This document shows, in pieces, positions 11,888 through 40,462 of a stretch of 40,462 nt of DNA. Origin of the DNA: a virus; IMG/VR virus record IMGVR_UViG_3300018080_000063, positions 1 through 40,462 of that record; one strand, written 5' to 3'. The position numbers and the translations under genes were made by a program. The notes below the pieces were generated by a model, which was not told the DNA's origin, did no database searches, and saw only the letters and a program-made list of their open reading frames with translations. The stretch's first letter is position 1; every line of letters starts with the position of its first letter.

Positions 11888-11977
11888 ATTTCTTTTACAG
11901 CAACAGCACTTACAGCAGTCGCAACAGCTACCACCACTTAAAACAATAAGTATTAACAAAATCATTAACCAACTCAT
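11861..11977 (-). CDS. Cysteine-cluster membrane micro-protein (38 aa)
   Basis: A hydrophobic segment MSWLMILLILIVLSGG (1-16) is followed by a run holding eight cysteines in ten residues (SCCDCCKCCCCKR) and an acidic Tyr-ended tail (NENEDDYYY). The start has a GGGGGAAAAT motif upstream. Cysteine placement after a single membrane helix suggests metal binding, lipidation or disulphide cross-linking; cytosolic or periplasmic orientation is undecided. It lies 33 bp downstream of the ribbon-helix-helix gene on the same strand, so the two may be one unit. It resembles no family I can name; its real expression is not proven. Confidence 0.5.
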   Translation of the reverse strand: MSWLMILLILIVLSGGSCCDCCKCCCCKRNENEDDYYY

Positions 11978-12009
11978 ATTTTCCCCCATAATTTAGTTAA
12001 TATATTTAA

Positions 12010-12168
12010 CTATTTCTTCTCTTTCTCGACCCTATACTCTTCATGCAAACCTAAAATTATAAGCTTAGTCACGTACTCTTTAAGGCTTATCCCCTTTTGC
12101 GATGCTAATGACTTCAAATCAGTGTGAAATTGCTTATCAACATCTATCAATAATCTCTTCGGTTTCAT
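12010..12168 (-). CDS. Ribbon-helix-helix (Arc/CopG-type) DNA-binding protein (52 aa)
   Basis: The short N-terminal strand RLLIDVDKQ (5-13) is followed by two helices (HTDLKSLASQKG, then SLKEYVTKLIILGLHEEY) and a charged tail. This is the Arc/CopG/MetJ fold, with the strand contacting the major groove of DNA as a dimer. AAAGGGA precedes the ATG. It sits between the ejection genes and the first large fibre gene, where P22 has arc and mnt in immI. Likely a repressor of a nearby promoter, perhaps its own or that of the fibre gene at 12294. An antitoxin role is possible, but no toxin gene is adjacent. Confidence 0.7.
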   Translation of the reverse strand: MKPKRLLIDVDKQFHTDLKSLASQKGISLKEYVTKLIILGLHEEYRVEKEKK

Positions 12169-12187
12169 AGTAATCCCTTTATGTTTC

Positions 12188-12204
12188 ATATTTTATATAA
12201 ATAT
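12188..12204. promoter_or_regulatory. Promoter/operator region upstream of the RHH gene
   Basis: An inverted repeat ATATTT-N5-AAATAT lies 20 bp before the RHH start. On the minus strand a TTTACT-N16-TATATT pair overlaps the adjacent bases, a plausible sigma70-type promoter. The arrangement would allow autorepression by the RHH protein. The region 12169-12293 holds nothing else but the AAGGAGAAG Shine-Dalgarno of the fibre gene. Confidence 0.4.
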
Positions 12205-12293
12205 ACTAAATCAATAAAAAAAGTAAAGGGTTGTTAATTTAAATCTATATATTGGTGGTGGTTATAGTTTAATTTTTTATAAGGAGAAGCTTC

Positions 12294-14456
12294 ATGGCTT
12301 TTAATGATAGAAAACAGTATATGGTATACACCCTTAACGGGGCTAAGTTACCATTGGCACCACATCCAATCGTATCCACACGCCCACCTACATCAAGTGA
12401 CTTAGCTGTTCCAGGCCGCATCTGGATTGATGAGACAGGGAATGATGCTTACATTTTGATAGAAATAACAGCAAACGAAGCTAACTGGAATGCAATTGGT
12501 TCTGGTTCTGGAACATTTGATTCTGTTACTGCTACAACTACCATAACAGCAGGTACAGATATTACTTCTACAGCAGGAACATTAACATTATCAGCTCTTG
12601 CTACAGCTGGTGTATTGTTTAACGATGCTTCTGGTGTTGTTTCCTCAGCAACTGGTACAGATGGTCAGGTTATCATTGGTGCAACAGGCGCAGCTCCTTT
12701 ATGGGCTTCAGTTGTATCTGGTGATGGTAGTATGTCAGTAACAGCTGGTGCTAACACACTTGATCTTCGTGTGACTGGTGCAGCTGCAAGTACCTTCCCA
12801 ACAGATTCTGGTACAGCAACTCCTGTATTGGGTGCAACAACAGTAACTGGTGGAACAAATATTGGCACAGTTGGTGCTGGTGGCGTTGTAACCATTAATG
12901 TTGATAATGCTCCTACCTTCTCAGGCCTTGTAACAGCTCAGGCTGGCATTACTCAATCAGCTGGTACTGCAACCATAGTTTCTGATACTAATGGCGCACA
13001 AGCTATTTATCTACACGCTAACGGTGGTGTTAATGAAACTATCGAAGTATATGCTGATCAATCAACTAATGCACAAAGTATTTATGCTCATTCAGATCTT
13101 GGTGGTATTGATGTAACTGCTGGTATTGCTGCAGCTAATGCTGTACGTATCTACGCAAGTGATGCTGCTGGTGGAATCGATATTGATGCTGGTACAGGCG
13201 GAATCTCTGTTGTAGCTGCTAATGGCGCAGTAAATGTTGAAACAGGAACAGGCGCATTAAACCTGGGTGTTGATGCCGCTGCTCATACAACAACATTGGG
13301 TTCAACAACAACAACAGCTGCTACCGTAATACAATCTGGTACAGGTGATGTTACTGTTACCTCAACAGATGCAATTACCTTAGATTGCGCTGGTGTTCTT
13401 GAACTTAATTCATCCGCTGGTGTAATTAGCATTGGTAATGATGCTGTAACTCAAAACATAAATATTGCTACAGGTGCCGCAGCTCGTGATATCAGTATTG
13501 GTAATGGTACAGGCGCAACTTCAATCGATATTGATGCTGGTACAGGTGCATGTTCAATACTTTCAAACGCAACTGATCACACCGTAACATTCGGTTCAAC
13601 AACTGGTGTTTCTGCAATGACTGTACAAGCTGGCACGGGAACAATGACCCTTACAGCTGGTGGTGCATTAGATGCTAATGTAGTTGGTGCAGTAACTGTT
13701 GATGGCGTAAGCTTCTCAGTTGATGGAACAACTGCTTCAAATGTAACGGTAACTGGTGCTGGTGAAGATCTTACCTTAGGGGCAGTAGGCGGCTCCGTTG
13801 TTATAGATGGCTCAGAAGCAATCGTAACAGCCGTAGGAATCACTGCTTCAGACGTTGCTGGTGGAATAACCTTAACATCTGGAACAGCTGGTACCGTACA
13901 AACAACAACTGGCGCAGCAACAATTGATGGTGCAAGTTTCTCCATTGATTCAACTACTGCTTCAAATGTAACCGTAACTGGTGCTAGTGAAGATCTCAGC
14001 TTAACTGCTGTTGGTGGTTCTGTAGTTATTGATGGTTCAGAAGCAGTAGCAACTGCAGTTGGTATCACAGCTTCAGACGCTGCTGGTGGAATTACCTGCA
14101 CAACTGGTACTGGCGGATTTAATGTATCTTCTGGTGGTTTAATTGATCTAACTCCTGCAACAGATAGCCAAGCGACTCCAACTGCTGCTTCAACAATGAA
14201 TGTAAATATTGGGGTAGCAACGTTCACAGGCTACACAACTGCTTCTGCTGGAACGCAAACATTTACAATAACAAACTCACTTGTATCAACTTCTTCTGGA
14301 ATACTTGTAACTGTCGCTAACCAGGGAGCAAATGATGCTCAGCTCGAGATACGCCGCGTAACTCCGCTTGCTGGATCATTTACAGTAGCATTAGTTAACT
14401 CAGGATCACAAGCGCTTAATGGAGACGTTACTATTTCATTCATGGTATTAAACTAA
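12294..14456 (+). CDS. Large repeat-rich tail fibre
   Basis: The 720-aa product is almost free of Cys and Lys and very rich in Thr, Ala, Gly, Val and Asp, as in beta-helical fibres. Residues 1-70 form a virion-binding head (PGRIWIDETGNDAYILIEITAN, then W). The shaft carries modules of the type TDGQVIIGATGAAPLWASVV, also found in the fibres at 15256, 21629, 22988 and 24395. Two tandem 75-residue repeats (DNA 13698-13922 and 13923-14147; VDG-SFS-D-TTASNVTVTGA-EDL-L-AVGGSVVIDGSEA) precede a C-terminal tip (about 640-720). Start has AAGGAGAAG. Likely host recognition. Confidence 0.75.
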   Translation: MAFNDRKQYMVYTLNGAKLPLAPHPIVSTRPPTSSDLAVPGRIWIDETGNDAYILIEITANEANWNAIGSGSGTFDSVTATTTITAGTDITSTAGTLTLSALATAGVLFNDASGVVSSATGTDGQVIIGATGAAPLWASVVSGDGSMSVTAGANTLDLRVTGAAASTFPTDSGTATPVLGATTVTGGTNIGTVGAGGVVTINVDNAPTFSGLVTAQAGITQSAGTATIVSDTNGAQAIYLHANGGVNETIEVYADQSTNAQSIYAHSDLGGIDVTAGIAAANAVRIYASDAAGGIDIDAGTGGISVVAANGAVNVETGTGALNLGVDAAAHTTTLGSTTTTAATVIQSGTGDVTVTSTDAITLDCAGVLELNSSAGVISIGNDAVTQNINIATGAAARDISIGNGTGATSIDIDAGTGACSILSNATDHTVTFGSTTGVSAMTVQAGTGTMTLTAGGALDANVVGAVTVDGVSFSVDGTTASNVTVTGAGEDLTLGAVGGSVVIDGSEAIVTAVGITASDVAGGITLTSGTAGTVQTTTGAATIDGASFSIDSTTASNVTVTGASEDLSLTAVGGSVVIDGSEAVATAVGITASDAAGGITCTTGTGGFNVSSGGLIDLTPATDSQATPTAASTMNVNIGVATFTGYTTASAGTQTFTITNSLVSTSSGILVTVANQGANDAQLEIRRVTPLAGSFTVALVNSGSQALNGDVTISFMVLN

Positions 14457-18833: not shown

Positions 18834-19505
18834 ATGGCTACAGTAAAAAACAGTATAAATAATAAAGCCCAGGATCTTACGATAGATCCTGGCGCAAGCG
18901 GTGATTCATTTGTTCAGTTCAATATCAATGGGACTGGAGAATTTAAGATTGGCGTTGATGACGATGCATCTGACGCATTTAAAATAAGCCAAGGAAGTGC
19001 GCTTGGCACTACTGACACGTTTGTTATGAGCGCTGCTGGTGAACGTACAATGCCGTTACAACCAGCATTTTTGGCTTATAATAGTTCAACGCTATTAAAT
19101 GTTACTGGCGATAATACAAGTTATACTGTTGCGTTCGATAGTAAGATATACGATCAAAATAGCGATTATAATACCGGAACTTATACATTCACAGCGCCTG
19201 TCACAGCTAGATACAAAGTGTCTATTATTACTAATCTTGGCGGATGTACAGCATCACATAACTCATCTCAGATAGATTTAGTAACAAGCAACAGAAGTTA
19301 TGCTTCATTGTCTTCGTTTAGTCCTGCTGCTGTCAAAACAGTTTGGGGAACTATGAGTCTAAATGCTACTTTAGAAGTAGACATGGATGCTGCTGACACA
19401 GCTTATGTTGTTGTAAATGTTCAAGGTGGCACAAAGGTTATAGTTATAACTGGCGGAGCATCATCAACGATATATAGCTTATTTTCAGCTACACTTATCT
19501 GCTAA
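18834..19505 (+). CDS. Fibre with C1q-like C-terminal domain (copy 1 of tandem pair)
   Basis: In this 223-aa protein, residues 1-80 (SINNKAQDLTIDPGASGDSF to ERTMPLQPAFLA) are nearly identical to those of the next gene. Residues 80-223 look like a C1q/TNF jelly-roll: VTGDNTSYTVAFDSKIYDQN, YTFTAPVTARYKVS, then VDMDAADTAYVVVNVQGG and a final FSATLIC. C1q-like domains form compact trimers and serve as binding heads. The gene lies 7 bp after the giant fibre and 9 bp before its paralogue, so all are co-transcribed. Confidence 0.7.
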   Translation: MATVKNSINNKAQDLTIDPGASGDSFVQFNINGTGEFKIGVDDDASDAFKISQGSALGTTDTFVMSAAGERTMPLQPAFLAYNSSTLLNVTGDNTSYTVAFDSKIYDQNSDYNTGTYTFTAPVTARYKVSIITNLGGCTASHNSSQIDLVTSNRSYASLSSFSPAAVKTVWGTMSLNATLEVDMDAADTAYVVVNVQGGTKVIVITGGASSTIYSLFSATLIC

Positions 19506-19514
19506 AGGATTAAT

Positions 19515-20168
19515 ATGGCTATAAAAAATAGTATAAATAATAAAGCCCAGGATCTTACGATAGATCCTGGTGCAAGCGGTGATTCATTTGTTCAATTCAA
19601 TATAAATGGGGCAGGTGAATTCCGTCTTGGTGTAGATGACGATGCTTCAGATGCATTTAAAATAAGTAACGGCAGTGCGCTTGGTACTACTGATACGTTT
19701 ATTATGAGTGCCAGTGGTGAGCGTACAATGCCTTTACAGCCGGCGTTTTTGGCTACAACTATAACAGAACAATTAAATGTAACTGGAGATGGAAGCAATG
19801 TAACAGCAGTTTTTGGGACAGAAGTATTTGATCAGAATGCTGATTATGATAGCACTTCTACATTTACCGCTTCTGTTAGTGGACGTTACTCCTTTACTAC
19901 TATACTTAGCATGAAAAATGCTCTCGTAGCTCATACTAACTGTTCACTTTCTTTTATAACTAGCAATAGATCGTATGTAACTGTAACTCAAAATCCATAC
20001 AGCACGAGCAATGGAGCGCTTCTGCAGCTTAAAGGAACTTGTTTTGCTGATATGGATGTAGGTGATACGTGTTATGTTCAAGTTAATGCTGGCGGTGGAA
20101 GTAAAGTAATTGATCTTATGACAACAGCTGCAGGTTATAATTATTTTTCAGGTTATTTAGTTTGTTAA
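19515..20168 (+). CDS. Fibre with C1q-like C-terminal domain (copy 2 of tandem pair)
   Basis: This 217-aa paralogue of 18834 keeps the first 80 residues almost unchanged, even at DNA level (19515-19750 against 18834-19074). The C1q-like head differs strongly (NVTAVFGTEVFDQNADYD, FTASVSGRYSFTT, ADMDVGDTCYVQVNAGGG, YFSGYLVC). A constant base with a variable head suggests exchangeable receptor specificity. It closes the fibre operon; the tRNA begins 10 bp after its stop. No template repeat or reverse transcriptase is present to make this a diversity-generating cassette. Confidence 0.7.
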   Translation: MAIKNSINNKAQDLTIDPGASGDSFVQFNINGAGEFRLGVDDDASDAFKISNGSALGTTDTFIMSASGERTMPLQPAFLATTITEQLNVTGDGSNVTAVFGTEVFDQNADYDSTSTFTASVSGRYSFTTILSMKNALVAHTNCSLSFITSNRSYVTVTQNPYSTSNGALLQLKGTCFADMDVGDTCYVQVNAGGGSKVIDLMTTAAGYNYFSGYLVC

Positions 20169-20178
20169 TTATTTTAAA

Positions 20179-20254
20179 GCTGGCGTAGCTCAGTTGGTAG
20201 AGCAGCCGTTTTGTAAACGGCAGGTCAACAGTCCGAATCTGTTCGCCAGCTCCA
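20179..20254 (+). tRNA. tRNA-Thr (anticodon UGU), CCA encoded
   Basis: The acceptor stem GCTGGCG/CGCCAGC is perfect. The D arm is GCTC-AGTTGGTAGA-GC. The anticodon stem GCCGT/ACGGC closes the loop TTTGTAA with anticodon TGT, reading ACA (and ACG by wobble). The T stem AACAG/CTGTT closes the loop TCCGAAT. CCA is encoded at 20252-20254. The T loop has C where nearly all tRNAs have U55, so it would lack pseudouridine 55. ACA is common in the Thr-rich fibre genes nearby, which may explain why the phage keeps this tRNA. Confidence 0.95.
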
Positions 20255-20273: not shown

Positions 20274-20576
20274 ATGGATAAAAAGAGCACATTAAATAGA
20301 ATTCGCCCACTAGGCGATCGTGTATTAATCAAGCGCTTAGCAGGCGAAGACAAAACTGTAGGGGGTATCATTATTCCTAATGACTCCCAAGAAATTTCCC
20401 AGATCGGCGGTGTTATTGCTACCGGTCCAGGACGTGAAGAAGGAGGAAAACTTATCCCTCTCCAGGTCAAAGTAGGCGATATAGTTTATTTTGGCAAATT
20501 TGCAGGAGCACCATTCTTTGATGATGAGCATGTCATTATGAATGAGAGTGAAATATTAGGCGTAATCGTTGAATAA
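20274..20576 (+). CDS. groES: GroES co-chaperonin
   Basis: This full-length, 100-aa Cpn10 has NRIRPLGDRVLIKRL at the N-terminus, a mobile loop with the GroEL-binding hydrophobic tripeptide (GGIIIPND, about 30-37), IGGVIATGPGREEGGK, VKVGDIVYFGKFAG and a final SEILGVIVE. It caps the host GroEL ring. Phage Cpn10 proteins (T4 gp31, RB49 CocO) adapt GroEL for folding the large coat protein; the same use is likely here. AGGAG precedes the start, 19 bp after the tRNA's CCA. No groEL is present, so a host partner is required. Confidence 0.95.
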   Translation: MDKKSTLNRIRPLGDRVLIKRLAGEDKTVGGIIIPNDSQEISQIGGVIATGPGREEGGKLIPLQVKVGDIVYFGKFAGAPFFDDEHVIMNESEILGVIVE

Positions 20577-28546: not shown

Positions 28547-28753
28547 ATGATTGATTATGCAAATAAATTTAGAATACATGACCGTTTGATGAACACTATG
28601 AGAGAAAAAGATTTAAATGTTACTGATGTAAGTAGGGAAACTGGGCTAAGTCGAGTAACAATATATAGAATCATTAACAACGAGAAGATAGCTTTAAAGT
28701 CTGTTTTAAAGATGGACAAATGGATGACAGACATCTTCTGTATTATTCAATAA
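28547..28753 (+). CDS. Small HTH regulator (68 aa), Cro/XRE-like
   Basis: Residues about 22-50 (LNVTDVSRETGLSRVTIYRIINNEK) fit a helix-turn-helix with the conserved G at the turn and a recognition helix SRVTIYRI. The rest is a short helical extension. AGGGATAAG precedes the ATG. It is the only + strand gene in the early region and faces the minus-strand early operon across the operator-like decamers, the layout of a repressor/Cro switch. No integrase is present, so the switch may serve timing rather than lysogeny. Confidence 0.75.
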   Translation: MIDYANKFRIHDRLMNTMREKDLNVTDVSRETGLSRVTIYRIINNEKIALKSVLKMDKWMTDIFCIIQ

Positions 28754-31418: not shown

Positions 31419-31676
31419 ATGTTAAAAACAACTATATATTGGATTAAGGTTGAAGAAGAGAAGCCTGAATTGGATAGAGAGATTCTTGTTGGTCTTTATG
31501 GAGAAGGTGTGGAGGCAGGAAAGTATATCCAGCCAGGCCCAGATGAAGAGCCTGCATTCTTTGAGGCTAAGAGTGGAAGACTACTAACTAATGTAACCCA
31601 TTGGAAATATGTAGAAGATGCTGGAGTGCCAAGTTTTTTAAGAAAGAAAAGTGGGTGTAAAGATGGGGATCGATAG
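31419..31676 (+). CDS. DUF551-like small protein (85 aa)
   Basis: The protein has the DUF551 pattern YWIKVEEEKPELDREILVGL, a middle YIQPGPDEEPAFFEA and the C-terminal NVTHWKYVEDAGVPSF. AGGAGCAACA precedes the start. The last 30 residues are duplicated just after the next gene (32276-32371). Its 3' end overlaps the start of the sigma4-alphaCTD gene by 14 bp, so insertion of that gene seems to have rebuilt this end. Confidence 0.7.
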   Translation: MLKTTIYWIKVEEEKPELDREILVGLYGEGVEAGKYIQPGPDEEPAFFEAKSGRLLTNVTHWKYVEDAGVPSFLRKKSGCKDGDR

Positions 31677-32271
31677 AATAAGCTTAGATAAATGCGTTAG
31701 TAGATGCGAAAATTGTAATGCACTTTTGAAGCAATTTAAGAGCGATAATAAACTGCTTCAAATTATTTTTAATTTAAGCCATAGAGAATATAAAATAATT
31801 ATTATGCACTATGCATTAGGCTATAGTTTTGAAGACATTGCGAATATTTACCATGTAAGTATAGAACGAATTAGGCATATAGAACGAGAAGCGTTTAAAA
31901 AATTAGATTCTGAAGTTAAGTTATTAACTGGAATAGAGATTCAAGTTGATGAATGGAAAAGTTTTTTGGGAGAAAACTTATTTCGTTTACCTGGAATCGT
32001 TAAAAAAATAAAAGTTAAGCGTGAGACTAGATATTCAATAAGCGATTCTCTTGCCTTACCAGGTAAGGCAACTAAAGATTCATGTATTAAAGAGTTAGAT
32101 CTAGGTACAAGAGCTACAAATTGTTTATTATCTATCGGAGTTAAAACTGTTGGTGATTTAATAGCAACGCCTAGATGGAAGCTTACTAAAATAAAAAACT
32201 TTGGGCGAAAAAGCTTAAACAATGTGCTGCTTACTATAAGAGCATTTCAAGAAGACCAAGCGCCAGTGTGA
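31663..32271 (+). CDS. Sigma-70 region 4 / RNA polymerase alpha-CTD fusion protein
   Basis: In this 202-aa protein (ATG 31663; GTG 31651 possible), residues 38-82 are sigma region 4: LSHREYKIIIMHYALGYSFE, then IANIYHVSIERIRHIEREA and FKKL, with the ERIR-IE recognition helix. Residues 141-195 are an alpha-CTD: ELDLGTRATNCLLSIGVKTV, GDL, and KIKNFGRKSLNNV. Residues matching E. coli R265, N268, G296, K298 and S299, which hold UP-element DNA, are all present (R150, N153, G181, K183, S184). A C-x3-C-x2-C group (11, 15, 18) lies at the start. Both halves bind promoter DNA next to RNA polymerase, so it probably redirects host polymerase. It has no sigma region 2. Confidence 0.85.
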   Translation: MGIDRISLDKCVSRCENCNALLKQFKSDNKLLQIIFNLSHREYKIIIMHYALGYSFEDIANIYHVSIERIRHIEREAFKKLDSEVKLLTGIEIQVDEWKSFLGENLFRLPGIVKKIKVKRETRYSISDSLALPGKATKDSCIKELDLGTRATNCLLSIGVKTVGDLIATPRWKLTKIKNFGRKSLNNVLLTIRAFQEDQAPV

Positions 32272-32275
32272 TAAT

Positions 32276-32371
32276 AATTAACTAATGTAACCCATTGGAA
32301 ATATGTAGAAGATGCTGGAGTACCAAGCTTCCTGCGTATTAAGAGCGGCTGTAAAGACGGAGAACGATGAT
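32276..32371 (+). pseudogene. Duplicated 3' end of the DUF551-like gene
   Basis: The segment reads LTNVTHWKYVEDAGVPSF, then LRIKSGCKDGER and a stop at 32369-32371, matching the end of the 85-aa protein at 31419 except for a few residues, with third-position changes in DNA. It has no start of its own. It is probably the original gene end left behind when the gene at 31663 was inserted. It supplies the GGAG before the next gene. Confidence 0.8.
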
Positions 32372-33572: not shown

Positions 33573-34028
33573 ATGCAAGATGAACCCAAATATCAAGAAA
33601 CTTTAGAAGATGTCCCACGCGTCGTATATGTCATTCCGGGAGATCCCGTACCGCTCGCCAGAGCCAGATGCGGCAACGGTAGATTCTATGACTCACAAAA
33701 AAACATTAAAGTCTGCGCAGGTATCTATCTGCAACAACAACACCAAGACGGCATAATCTTTTCAGGACCGGTAACCCTTACTGCTAACTTCTATCTCTAT
33801 CTACCTCGTAGAAGATCCAAAAAAGATACCAGACACGAAAATAGCCCACACTTCTATCGACCAGACCTCTCAAATCTCATAAAATTCGTAGAAGATCTGA
33901 TCACTGACGTAGAGATATGGAAAGATGACTGCATAATATCTGAAATATATGCTAAAAAGATATACTCTTCAGAACCACGTACTGAACTTATAATCGAGAG
34001 ATATCATGAGCAAAACCAACCAAAATAA
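33573..34028 (+). CDS. rusA: RusA-like Holliday junction resolvase
   Basis: The 151-aa product has YVIPGDPVPLARARCGNGRF (20-39), a YLYLPRRRSKKD strand, and the active-site region YRPDLSNLIKFVEDLITDVE (about 92-111) followed by WKDDCII (about 113-119). The acidic residues of the PDL-N and DD motifs coordinate metal in RusA; the second Asp of E. coli DLD is Ser here, a form I have seen in phage relatives. RusA cuts four-way junctions. Next to terminase it would remove branches before packaging. Its 3' end overlaps TerS by 23 bp. Confidence 0.85.
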   Translation: MQDEPKYQETLEDVPRVVYVIPGDPVPLARARCGNGRFYDSQKNIKVCAGIYLQQQHQDGIIFSGPVTLTANFYLYLPRRRSKKDTRHENSPHFYRPDLSNLIKFVEDLITDVEIWKDDCIISEIYAKKIYSSEPRTELIIERYHEQNQPK

Positions 34029-34530
34029 CACAGCAAAAAAAAAAGCGAAGAGCATCACTACACATAAAAAACGTGAATATATGCCCTACTTCGACTACTC
34101 AACTGGAATGAGAAAATACGCTGACGATGTATTTCTAGATCAACTAGCAGATAAACTATTCCTATGGACCAGAGATCATTGTGCAAAGCCTAAATACCGC
34201 ATCTCTCTCGTAAGGTTCTTAGCTGAATTAGGCTACGATAGAGACACCTTCTACGGTTGGTGTAGGCGTCATAAAAAACTTATGTGTGTTAAAAAAGCAG
34301 CTCTTATTATGATGGCTGATACTAACCATGCTCTTGCTAGCGATAAGAAAGCAGATTGGGGATCAGTTAAGATAATGGTTTATAACCAAGACGAAGAGTT
34401 TAAAAAGAATGTTCTCGACTTTGAAGCACTACTCGCAAAGATTAAAAAAGACTTCGGAGAAGATGATAAGAATATAACCATTAATCTTGTAGATCATAGC
34501 GGCAAAAAGAAAGAGATAACGAATGGCTAA
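34006..34530 (+). CDS. Terminase small subunit (putative)
   Basis: The 174-aa product has a basic N-terminus (KKKAKSITTHKKREY). It has a helix-turn-helix-like segment (YRISLVRFLAELGYDRDTFYGWCRRHKKLM, about 63-92) with the phage TerS pattern of a homeodomain-like HTH, then helices for ring assembly and a Lys-rich tail. TerS recognises the packaging site and recruits TerL. It overlaps RusA upstream and TerL downstream (8 bp). Identified by context and HTH, so family assignment is moderately sure. Confidence 0.7.
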   Translation: MSKTNQNNTAKKKAKSITTHKKREYMPYFDYSTGMRKYADDVFLDQLADKLFLWTRDHCAKPKYRISLVRFLAELGYDRDTFYGWCRRHKKLMCVKKAALIMMADTNHALASDKKADWGSVKIMVYNQDEEFKKNVLDFEALLAKIKKDFGEDDKNITINLVDHSGKKKEITNG

Positions 34531-35848
34531 AGAGATAACGTTAGATCTGTTTAAGCCACGTGATTATCAGCTTGATATAATCGATGCTCTTGAGAATAAA
34601 GGTGTTAAGAGATTTGTCTTAGTTTGGTCCAGAAGAATGGGTAAAGACCATATTTCCTTCTATATAGCGATACGCCAACTACTTAGAAAAGTATGCACTG
34701 TCTTCTATATATTCCCTACTGCTAAGCAAGCACGTATTGCTATCTGGGATGGTATAAATTCAGACGGTCAGCGTATTATTGAGTATATACCTAAGGAGTT
34801 AATAGCTAATAAGAATGACTCAGATATGAAGATACGGCTTATTAACGGGAGTACATTACAGTTTATAGGCTCATCGGATGTTGATAGGGTACGGGGTACT
34901 GCTTGTTACGGTGCTATATTTTCTGAGTTTGCTACTGCTAACCCTGAATCATGGACAACATTACGACCTGTATTAGCACAAAATGATGGTTGGGCTATCT
35001 TTGTCTCTACACCTAACGGCCATAATGAGTTCTATAGTCTTTATAACATGGCAGTGAAGTCTGATTACTGGTATACATCTCTTCGTAATATAAATAACAC
35101 TGATTACTTATCTAAGGAGATTATTGAGCAGGAACGTGCTGAAATGTCTGAAGATAAGTTCCTTCAGGAGTATGAATGTAGCTGGGCAGCAGGAGCAGCC
35201 GGTGCCTATTATGCCAAGTATATAAATAATCTTCGTCTCAACGGTCAGATTTCCTCAGTCCCTTGGGATACATCTCACAAGGTATCAACAAGCTGGGACC
35301 TTGGTGTCAGAGATTCTACAGCTATAGTTTTTTTCCAGGTAATTAATAACGCTATTCATGTCATAGACTATTATGAGAATAATAAAGAGGGGTTAGAACA
35401 TTATGTACAGATTATTAATAGCAAACCGTATGTTTACAATGCTCATATTGCTCCACATGATATTGCCGTTACTGAGTTTAGTTCTGGTGTCGCTAGGATT
35501 GATAAGGCACGTCAATTAGGCATAGATTTCATCGTAGCGCCAAAGTTATTGATTGCTGATGGTATTGAGGCCGTGCGCACAATGTTGCCTCGTTGTTTCT
35601 TTGATGAGATTAAATGTAAGCAGCTGGTTAACTCACTAGATAACTATAGGCAAGAGTGGGATGACGTTCGTAAGGTCTATAAAGATCGACCACGTCATGA
35701 CCATCACAGTAATGCATCAGATGCTTTCAGAATGCTCGCAGTTTCTTTAAGTAAGATAATTGAGGGCTTAACACCAGATGATTTAGACCGTATTCGTGCA
35801 GAAGCTGCTGGTATGGAAAGAGAAAACTATTCACATCCGTTTATGTAA
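34523..35848 (+). CDS. terL: Terminase large subunit
   Basis: This 441-aa packaging motor has an ATPase with Walker A WSRRMGKD (35-42, GKD rather than GKS/T as in many podovirus-like terminases), Walker B GAIFSEFA (130-137) and coupling motif FVSTPNGHN (160-168). The RNase H-type nuclease has acidic residues at TSWDLG (D259), PHDIAV (D313) and the final HHSNASDAF (D400). It cuts concatemers and drives DNA into procapsids through the portal. Together with a P22-like layout, headful packaging is likely. A terminator follows 28 bp after the stop. Confidence 0.92.
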   Translation: MAKEITLDLFKPRDYQLDIIDALENKGVKRFVLVWSRRMGKDHISFYIAIRQLLRKVCTVFYIFPTAKQARIAIWDGINSDGQRIIEYIPKELIANKNDSDMKIRLINGSTLQFIGSSDVDRVRGTACYGAIFSEFATANPESWTTLRPVLAQNDGWAIFVSTPNGHNEFYSLYNMAVKSDYWYTSLRNINNTDYLSKEIIEQERAEMSEDKFLQEYECSWAAGAAGAYYAKYINNLRLNGQISSVPWDTSHKVSTSWDLGVRDSTAIVFFQVINNAIHVIDYYENNKEGLEHYVQIINSKPYVYNAHIAPHDIAVTEFSSGVARIDKARQLGIDFIVAPKLLIADGIEAVRTMLPRCFFDEIKCKQLVNSLDNYRQEWDDVRKVYKDRPRHDHHSNASDAFRMLAVSLSKIIEGLTPDDLDRIRAEAAGMERENYSHPFM

Positions 35849-39272: not shown

Positions 39273-39570
39273 GTTGCCCCTAATTAGGCCCTAGATTGTA
39301 AGAATTCTATTAATGCTTTTTTAGGATATAAAATCTTATGCTTAAGCTTGATATATTTTGGAGAACTTCCATCTACTCTCGCTTGATAAGCCGCATTAAC
39401 AGATATATAAATTCCAAGATTTATTAGATCTTCTGAAGTTAAAAATTCAGGAAATTCTTCTATTGCTTCAGCTATATATTCTTCTATTGGCTTATCTACA
39501 TAACGTTCCATGTGCGTTTTCCTTATAGAAACTTGTTTAAGTTAGTTACCCATAATTAGACCCTACTTGA
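39273..39570. repeat. Imperfect direct repeats flanking the excisionase-like gene
   Basis: GTTGCCCCTAATTAGGCCCT at 39273-39292 (extending to about 39298) recurs as GTTACCCATAATTAGACCCT at 39545-39564 (extending to about 39570), about 20 of 26 bases equal. The left copy covers the 3' end of the gene at 39284, the right copy lies upstream of its start. They may be operators for its product or marks of an insertion. Confidence 0.55.
39284..39511 (-). CDS. Excisionase/AlpA-like HTH protein (75 aa)
   Basis: Residues 24-72 (LTSEDLINLGIYISVNAAYQ, then GSSPKYIKLKHKILYPKKAL and IEFL) follow the HTH_17 pattern LT--E---LGIS-----R--G--P-YIK----I-Y----L--FL. An acidic helix (1-20, PIEEYIAEAIEEFPEF) precedes it. 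AAGGAAAACGCAC precedes the ATG. It is the only minus-strand gene between terminase and coat and lies beside the decamer array, so it may bind there. No integrase is present, so a regulator is likelier than an excisionase. Confidence 0.7.
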   Translation of the reverse strand: MERYVDKPIEEYIAEAIEEFPEFLTSEDLINLGIYISVNAAYQARVDGSSPKYIKLKHKILYPKKALIEFLQSRA

Positions 39571-39581
39571 GTTTCAAAAAA

Positions 39582-39671
39582 CATTCAATCTCATTCGAAC
39601 TCATTCGAACTTATTCAATCTTATCCAATCTCATTTAATCTTATTCGAACTCATTCGAACTCTTTTAAGCT
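39582..39671. repeat. Iteron-like array of eight 10-bp repeats
   Basis: From 39582 to 39661 decamers run without gaps: CATTCAATCT, CATTCGAACT twice, TATTCAATCT, TATCCAATCT, CATTTAATCT, TATTCGAACT, CATTCGAACT; a degenerate ninth (CTTTTAAGCT) follows. Two sub-types (TTCGAACT and TCAATCT endings) alternate. Ten-base spacing presents the same bases on one side of the helix. It lies in a 462-bp gene-free region. It may be a replication origin, a partition-like or regulator-loading site. Confidence 0.8.
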
Positions 39672-39707
39672 TGCACGGAATAAAAGTTCTAAAGTCGTCC
39701 GATTGGG
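39670..39707. repeat. 38-bp direct repeat, copy 1
   Basis: CTTGCACGGAATAAAAGTTC and the following 18 bases to 39707 (AAAGTCGTCC-GATTGGG) recur at 39852-39889 with four differences. Copy 1 abuts the decamer array. The pair brackets about 144 bp of non-coding DNA containing an AGGAAT/ATTCCT hairpin (about 39709-39732). Confidence 0.75.
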
Positions 39708-39851
39708 TAGGAATAACAGGAAAAATTCCTCTCACCACGTAGGAAAAGTTAAAAAAAGAATTTGGGTACGAAAAATATTTATACTTTCAATCTCCCAAAG
39801 ATGCCCACTGTAGGCCATTTATTGGCAACTCTTTAAAGAAATACAGCTAAA

Positions 39852-39889
39852 CTTGCACGTAATAAAAGTTCTAAAATCGTCCTGTTGGG
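39852..39889. repeat. 38-bp direct repeat, copy 2
   Basis: The second copy of the element at 39670-39707 lies about 85 bp upstream of the gene at 39974. Both copies have the same orientation and are 182 bp apart. They could be phage promoters or regulator sites, since one precedes the scaffold-coat unit; no sigma70 consensus is evident inside them. Confidence 0.75.
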
Positions 39890-39973
39890 GTACCCATAAG
39901 AGACTAGTTTCGAACTTTACTAAGTTGTTATATAGTAAGGTTGTTTTATCTATAACCCTTTTAAAGGAGCTTA

Positions 39974-40462
39974 ATGGAAGATAAGAAAACAGTCGGTCAG
40001 GCATCGCTCGATCTACTTAACAAAGACCCAGATACTCAAGATCCTATTGAACTACAACGCGCTATTGATCATGACTATGAAGAACAGATAGTAATATGTG
40101 CAGAGAGAGGTAAAAAACTCTACGAGGGGGACTTTTATATCGTTGTTGGTATAAAGAGAGAGCGGCTCCTTAAAAATGTCATTAGAAGGCAAATATTCCA
40201 TCGCTCTACCTGCCCTACACCTCAGAATGATCAAACAGTCTATAAGTACCACAAAAACGGTGACCGTATTGAATTCCTATGGGTAATACCATCACTTGAT
40301 ACTTGTATGACCTTTGTAAATGATGCTCATAATGTTGCTCCAGAAGAATGGGATCTTCTTAAGTTTGTTTTAGAGTTTGAAGATGGAACACTGCTTAAGA
40401 AAGCTAAGAAATTGAACAATGAATTAACCGATGAGTCCTATATCATTAAGATTGAAGGAAAC
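39974..40462 (+). CDS. Unknown phage protein between portal and scaffold (163 aa, spans circular join)
   Basis: The start ATG has AAAGGAG 7 bp upstream. The protein begins MEDKKTVGQASLDLLNKDPD. It has YEEQIVICAERGKKLYEGDF and YIVVGIKRERLLKNVIRRQI, and a C-terminal half with RIEFLWVIPSLDTCMTFVND and FEDGTLLKKAKKLN. The stop is supplied by bases 124-126 after circularisation, overlapping the scaffold start. Conserved position before scaffold suggests a minor head or regulatory role. No motif is recognised. Confidence 0.75.
   Translation, partial: MEDKKTVGQASLDLLNKDPDTQDPIELQRAIDHDYEEQIVICAERGKKLYEGDFYIVVGIKRERLLKNVIRRQIFHRSTCPTPQNDQTVYKYHKNGDRIEFLWVIPSLDTCMTFVNDAHNVAPEEWDLLKFVLEFEDGTLLKKAKKLNNELTDESYIIKIEGN
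40340..40462. repeat. Terminal direct repeat (copy of 1-123)
   Basis: All 123 bases equal those at 1-123. Such a short exact overlap inside a coding gene is the usual sign of a circular assembly graph cut at one point. It therefore marks a complete genome of about 40,339 bp rather than a biological terminal repeat, though a short true redundancy cannot be excluded from sequence alone. Confidence 0.9.

Follow-up and report, generated by a model that had tools for sequence, protein, structure and literature searches.

The window, that is, the whole stretch of DNA analysed here, is a complete IMG/VR virus record of 40,462 bases that carries a 123-bp direct repeat at both ends and is therefore probably the complete genome of a phage of about 40.3 kb. 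The gene of interest encodes a 202-residue protein in which region 4 of a sigma-70 factor is joined through a linker to the C-terminal domain of the RNA polymerase alpha subunit (alpha-CTD); coordinates are collected in Table 1. It lies between replication genes and a packaging block. Genes for a single-stranded DNA-binding protein (SSB), a replication initiation-like protein, a weak HTH_17 protein and two DUF551-like proteins are found upstream, and the order downstream is RusA, presumed TerS, TerL and portal. This places the gene in the late part of the early region and not in the immediate-early block. Among the window proteins scanned there was no match to a polymerase or to a sigma factor with region 2, and no phrog_36/248-type regulator was detected besides the fusion protein; the likely regulators seen are only the fusion and small HTH proteins (encoded at 28547, 30683 and, weakly, 39284). 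Phage records contained no near DNA match to positions 1-25000 of the window, and a portal protein scan for relatives returned nothing.

Table 1. Features of the fusion locus and of other regions discussed in the text. Coordinates refer to the window unless a contig is named.
Feature	Position	Strand	Remarks
tRNA-Thr (TGT)	20179-20254		Phage-encoded
SSB gene	29103	-	Upstream of fusion gene
Replication initiation-like protein gene	29766		Upstream of fusion gene
Weak HTH_17 protein gene	30683		Upstream of fusion gene
DUF551-like gene adjoining fusion	31419-31676	+	3' end forms repeat copy 1
90-bp direct repeat, copy 1	31585-31674	+	3' end of the DUF551-like gene; contains fusion ATG
Fusion gene	31663-32271	+	202 aa; sigma-70 region 4, linker, alpha-CTD
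Sigma-70 region 4 module	31771-31905	+	aa 37-81, PF04545 match
H5-like segment	31909-31941	+	aa 83-93, SEVKLLTGIEI; after the recognition helix; putative, by sequence comparison
Linker	31942-32070	+	aa 94-136; a disordered stretch preceded by two predicted helices (AlphaFold)
Alpha-CTD module	32071-32226	+	aa 137-188, PF03118 match
90-bp direct repeat, copy 2	32279-32368	+	Remnant of another DUF551-like tail, lacking a start; follows the fusion gene directly
RusA Holliday junction resolvase	33573-34028	+	Downstream of fusion gene
Presumed terminase small subunit (TerS)	34006-34530	+	By position between RusA and TerL; no family match
Terminase large subunit (TerL)	34523-35848	+
Intergenic region before structural operon	39582-39889	.	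Possible target region; 10-bp phased array 39582-39672; 42-bp repeats 39666-39707 and 39848-39889
Separate phrog_36/248-type regulator	L094 5093-5491
Separate phrog_36/248-type regulator	L223 5164-5601

Away from this locus the window holds a GroES co-chaperonin gene (20274-20576; PHROG match, E 6e-23), two adjacent genes with an 83% identical 269-bp stretch that represents a tandem duplication (18844-19790), and a major capsid gene that is apparently split (1193-2361) into ORFs of 106 residues (1193-1513) and 212 residues (1723-2361). The GC-rich capsid-gene insert of about 210 nt folds somewhat better than shuffles (z -2.06), matches no Rfam family and is possibly a small intron; an exact search for its core piece in viral contigs found nothing. 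In the sister contig L006, the matching N-terminal part of the capsid protein (11950-12243) is followed by an ORF (12319-12855) that by eye looks like a LAGLIDADG homing endonuclease.

The fusion ORF is uninterrupted from its ATG to its stop codon (32269-32271), and an in-frame GTG at 31651 provides an alternative start that would add four residues. Both domains score above the Pfam cut-offs in this one ORF, region 4 first (PF04545, Sigma70_r4, E 5e-10, 39.2 bits against a cut-off of 24.1) and then the alpha-CTD (PF03118, RNA_pol_A_CTD, E 4.4e-16, 58.8 bits against a cut-off of 23.8). A PDB sequence search likewise matched the N-terminal half to region 4 of RpoD/SigA and the C-terminal half to alpha subunits. 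A sequence-only reading of this DNA had placed the two modules at residues 38-82 and 141-195, close to the boundaries that Pfam assigns. A frameshift artefact is ruled out, as both domains lie in one frame and occur in the identical order in independent genomes. With respect to membership of the sigma-70 factors, region 4 is present and region 2, whose absence the same reading had noted, gives no Pfam match in the fusion protein at E values up to 10; as region 2 was also absent from the window proteins scanned, the protein cannot melt a promoter alone. The N-terminal dimerisation and assembly domain of alpha is absent too, since RpoA models match residues 67-191 only and far below their cut-offs. 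A possible zinc finger at C11/C15/C18 was dropped because there are only three cysteines in a segment of low confidence.

Structure prediction bore out the assignment of both folds. The AlphaFold model, built on a 16-row alignment in place of a thin-alignment model of pLDDT 67, reaches mean pLDDT values of 91-96 for residues 41-80 and 141-180, and falls below 50 in the linker between residues 119 and 131. Using Foldseek, the alpha-CTD half matched the B. subtilis alpha-CTD (1z3e_B, TM 0.83 by target length, rmsd 0.9 A) and the region-4 half matched sigma-E region 4 on -35 DNA (2h27_D, TM 0.78); the shortness of each half leaves the E-values weak (0.007-0.05), but over those short domains the TM-scores are good.

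R584 and Q589 of sigma help to read the -35 element. In the region-4 half, the equivalents of E585, R586 and R588 are kept, I67 replaces R584, H72 replaces Q589 and E76 replaces K593, and the 4-residue loop of primary sigmas is missing, so that E585 alone remains of the primary-sigma -35 set R584/E585/Q589. If this helix reads DNA, the changes at R584 and Q589 suggest a different -35 sequence from that of the host sigma. The full set is kept in the relatives L223, L225, L083 and L094, and in L190 the position of R584 is occupied by T. The recognition helix is followed immediately, where sigma has H5, by an L..G motif whose L87 and G90 are invariant in six family members. Residues of sigma-70 in or near H1, H2 and H5 contact the beta-flap (PMC2988021), and the H5-like segment is a candidate for the same contact.

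In the alpha-CTD half, aligned to enterobacterial RpoA, R265 (R150 in the fusion), N268 (N153), C269 (C154), N294 (N179), G296 (G181), K298 (K183) and S299 (S184) are all kept, which includes each of the five equivalents that the initial reading had named (R265, N268, G296, K298 and S299). E302 is N187 in the fusion. Six of the seven residues by which we recognised an alpha-CTD (R265, N268, C269, G296, K298, S299 and E302) are thus present, and we count it as one. D259 and E261 of E. coli alpha face sigma region 4, and this acidic pair is retained as E144/D146. Across the family, all members or nearly all of them retain both this pair and the DNA-binding residues.

The architecture is rare but recurrent: it was found in three further phage lineages, in one Clostridia genome and in a second subfamily with an N-terminal HTH_17 domain, and the fusion is therefore not a one-off. 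Searching phage records with tblastn yielded two fecal phage fusions (H1 and H2); L083/L094, L087, L088, L212-L221, L222/L223 and L225 came from viral contigs scanned with alignments. A scan of viral contigs with the window fusion as a single protein found no relative; the first scan of genome contigs, with a three-row alignment, found no fusion, and the second returned RpoA proteins only and is uninformative on fusions. Region 4 and the alpha-CTD are both above cut-off in L083, L094, L190, L087, L088, P0002 (the H1 protein), L223, L225 and L212; in L219 and L221 the alpha-CTD and HTH_17 pass and the middle part is not called as region 4. The window protein, L083/L094, L222/L223, L225 and L190 form the two-domain subfamily; H1, H2/L087, L088 and L212-L215, together with L217, L218 and L220 by similarity, form the subfamily with HTH_17. 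At least one fusion (L190) occurs in 391 sampled Clostridia genomes, a lower bound obtained at a strict E-value, and none of 101 Dependentiae genomes has a fusion among the matches listed, also a lower bound.

How the gene entered this genome is suggested by the two 90-bp repeats that flank it. The copies are 83% identical with differences that are mostly synonymous, which suggests that the fusion may have arrived when two phages recombined at DUF551-like genes homologous to each other, and that the second repeat is not a recent tandem copy. All 18 terminase-related phage records, mostly partial, lack a match to the fusion gene, indicating that it is not essential to phages of this type. Its codon usage is typical of the genome, and together with the absence from the terminase-related records this points to a gene that was probably gained but has settled. 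As for the host, the alpha-CTD scores best against RpoA of Dependentiae (L182 and L183), and the tRNA-Thr of the phage shares 87% identity with tRNAs from Dependentiae versus at most 83% full-length in the sampled Clostridia and the phylum of G004. These similarities are a weak hint of a Dependentiae host; no related prophage and no portal match was found in Dependentiae genomes.

The position of the fusion gene also recurs. In three phage lineages, the window included, 1-3 kb separate it from the terminase genes downstream; the distance is about 1.1 kb to TerS-TerL-portal in L223 and about 3 kb to TerS-TerL in L083/L094 (TerS of L083 by position only). Phages often encode late regulators in such a place, after the early genes and before the packaging operon. 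L083, L094 and L223, all fusion carriers, also have a separate phrog_36/248-type regulator directly before TerS, which argues that the fusion is an additional factor there and not simply the late activator. Members of the HTH_17 subfamily (L212 and L218) have the gene near an integrase, pointing to another role in those phages.

The most reasonable explanation, to which we give a probability of about 0.5, is that the fusion acts as a phage promoter-upstream recognition factor that would bring the host polymerase to phage promoters. The region-4 half would dock at or near the beta-flap of the host polymerase and/or read a -35-like element, and the alpha-CTD half, on its flexible linker, would hold AT-rich DNA just upstream and could touch sigma region 4 via its acidic 261 face. 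The polymerase, which would still depend on host sigma region 2 to melt DNA, would thereby be brought to phage promoters, most likely at the shift from early genes to the late packaging and structural genes. Polymerase binding, DNA binding, activation, timing and target promoters are all what we infer here. This explanation is favoured because profiles and predicted structure show both modules to be intact, the alpha-CTD keeps its DNA-binding residues and acidic pair and an H5-like motif follows the recognition helix. It is supported by the lack of a polymerase, a region-2 sigma or a further phrog_36/248-type regulator among the window proteins scanned, by the recurrent site upstream of the terminase and by the PHROG matches of the region-4 half, which include sigma factors, transcriptional regulators and Q-like antiterminators. 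It is weakened by the changes at R584 and Q589, by the separate late-type regulators and integrase neighbourhoods in relatives, by the absence from terminase relatives and by consensus promoter scans near the late operon, which did not exceed chance. The original suggestion, that the protein could displace sigma region 4 or serve as a bridge between polymerase and phage promoters, is plausible because the region-4 HTH, the H5-like motif, the DNA-binding face of the alpha-CTD and the acidic 261 pair are kept.

A possible target of the fusion is the 464-bp gap before the structural operon (39512-39975). A phased 10-bp repeat occurs in it eight to nine times, giving a 10-bp periodicity stronger than anywhere else in the genome, and is followed by two 42-bp repeats 182 bp apart; a search of the rest of the genome found no further copies of the latter. 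A consensus scan for a sigma-70 promoter before the structural operon did no better than on shuffles. The repeat-bearing gap is a candidate target, but the fusion is no better a candidate for its partner than the small HTH-like gene next to it at 39284. It is conceivable, if doubtful, that the fusion replaces both upstream contacts, with region 4 at the flap and the alpha-CTD on UP DNA, while host sigma region 2 melts; promoters would then combine a phage-specific -35/UP block with an ordinary -10, and the window copy would read its own -35, perhaps in the phased repeats.

These same repeat arrays could instead be operators. One alternative, which we consider unlikely, is a plain DNA-binding regulator that would use the HTH and the helix-hairpin-helix as DNA readers for repression or activation with no direct docking on polymerase. 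Consistent with this, the alpha-CTD half also matches HHH_5 weakly and the region-4 half also matches generic HTH families in Pfam; moreover, the second subfamily adds an excisionase/MerR-like HTH_17 domain near an integrase. Yet the acidic 261 pair belongs to a face for protein and not DNA contact, and its conservation, like that of the H5-like motif, would be unexpected in such a regulator.

Retention of the polymerase-interaction faces in the absence of a melting domain is also what would be expected of a host shut-off decoy, in which region 4 would occupy the beta-flap and the alpha-CTD would compete for UP elements, activators or sigma region 4, in the manner of AsiA-type or ORF67-type inhibitors. 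Phage proteins that target sigma region 4 or the alpha-CTD are known (AsiA, Alt and MotA), and ORF67 of staphylococcal phage G1 is seen bound to sigma-A region 4 in PDB 4g6d. A pure decoy would, however, have no need of the DNA-binding faces that both halves largely keep or of the full -35 recognition residues present in most relatives, and the gene is late in the early region rather than in the immediate-early block; we consider this reading unlikely, too. The odds are about even between recruitment to promoters and these two alternatives taken together. Finally, the fusion could be a passenger (moron) gene that was captured recently and plays no part of its own in this phage. It is flanked by a repeat of the neighbouring gene's end, is absent from the terminase relatives tested and carries unusual substitutions in conserved residues (I67, H72, E76 and N187), but the intact frame, the codon usage shared with the genome and the high confidence of both predicted folds make the passenger reading very improbable.

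If recruitment to promoters is correct, one small add-on unites the two upstream promoter-reading parts of polymerase and is separate both from the catalytic enzyme and from the half of sigma that melts DNA. This would provide a compact tool for asking whether contacts by region 4 and the alpha-CTD suffice for promoter choice, and would represent a new phage route to redirect host transcription. Its recurrence in several phage lineages makes the fusion a family open to study and not a curiosity.

Parts of this arrangement have precedents. PBSX Xpf, the phrog_36/phrog_248 regulators and the minimal sigmas of jumbo phages resemble the fusion in having a region-4 HTH without region 2 in a phage that uses the host polymerase, and minimal sigma factors with a single HTH have been described (PMC7824862). 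Such region-4-only factors are known without an alpha-CTD, and in Xpf, Q-like and phrog_36/248 proteins the region-4-like HTH is the only catalogued domain, whereas the fusion has both. T4 AsiA/MotA and gp33 act at the sigma-4/beta-flap/-35 site and retarget host polymerase (PMC2988021, PMC7824862), but T4 uses other proteins to remodel or replace region 4 and ADP-ribosylates the alpha-CTD, while the fusion carries homologues of both modules in one protein. With bacterial alpha it shares the fold and most DNA-binding residues of the CTD; it differs in the loss of the E302 equivalent and of the N-terminal domain, and so of the usual core assembly.

Other phages have borrowed an alpha-CTD as well. 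In L210 (1081-1713), L227 (3617-4198) and L230 (3764-4216) it is attached to N-terminal regions without a family, and one such protein is annotated 'RNA polymerase subunit alpha' in Bacillus phage Goe8. The proteins of Goe8 (QDP42789), L227 and L230 have other N-termini, with no region 4 by Pfam, unlike the fusion. BFVD entries named 'RNA polymerase, alpha subunit, C-terminal' are alike by name. BFVD also has phage proteins of comparable size under the name 'DNA directed RNA polymerase subunit'; known by name and size, they mean that unrecognised members of the fusion family may already have been deposited. BREX PglW has an alpha-CTD-like domain (PMC12839542) and is a weak and partial NCBIfam match of the fusion; the sigma-like region of MzaA resembles that of the fusion, again weakly and partially. 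Both are large defence proteins with other domains, unlike the fusion. We found no description of a phage protein joining region 4 to an alpha-CTD in the open-access literature, an absence that is weak evidence. Region-4-only phage regulators, borrowed alpha-CTDs and phage retargeting of sigma region 4 are thus known already; what is probably new is the recurrent joining of region 4 and the alpha-CTD in one phage protein, which, judged from its modules, is probably a recurring and undescribed tool for steering host RNA polymerase.
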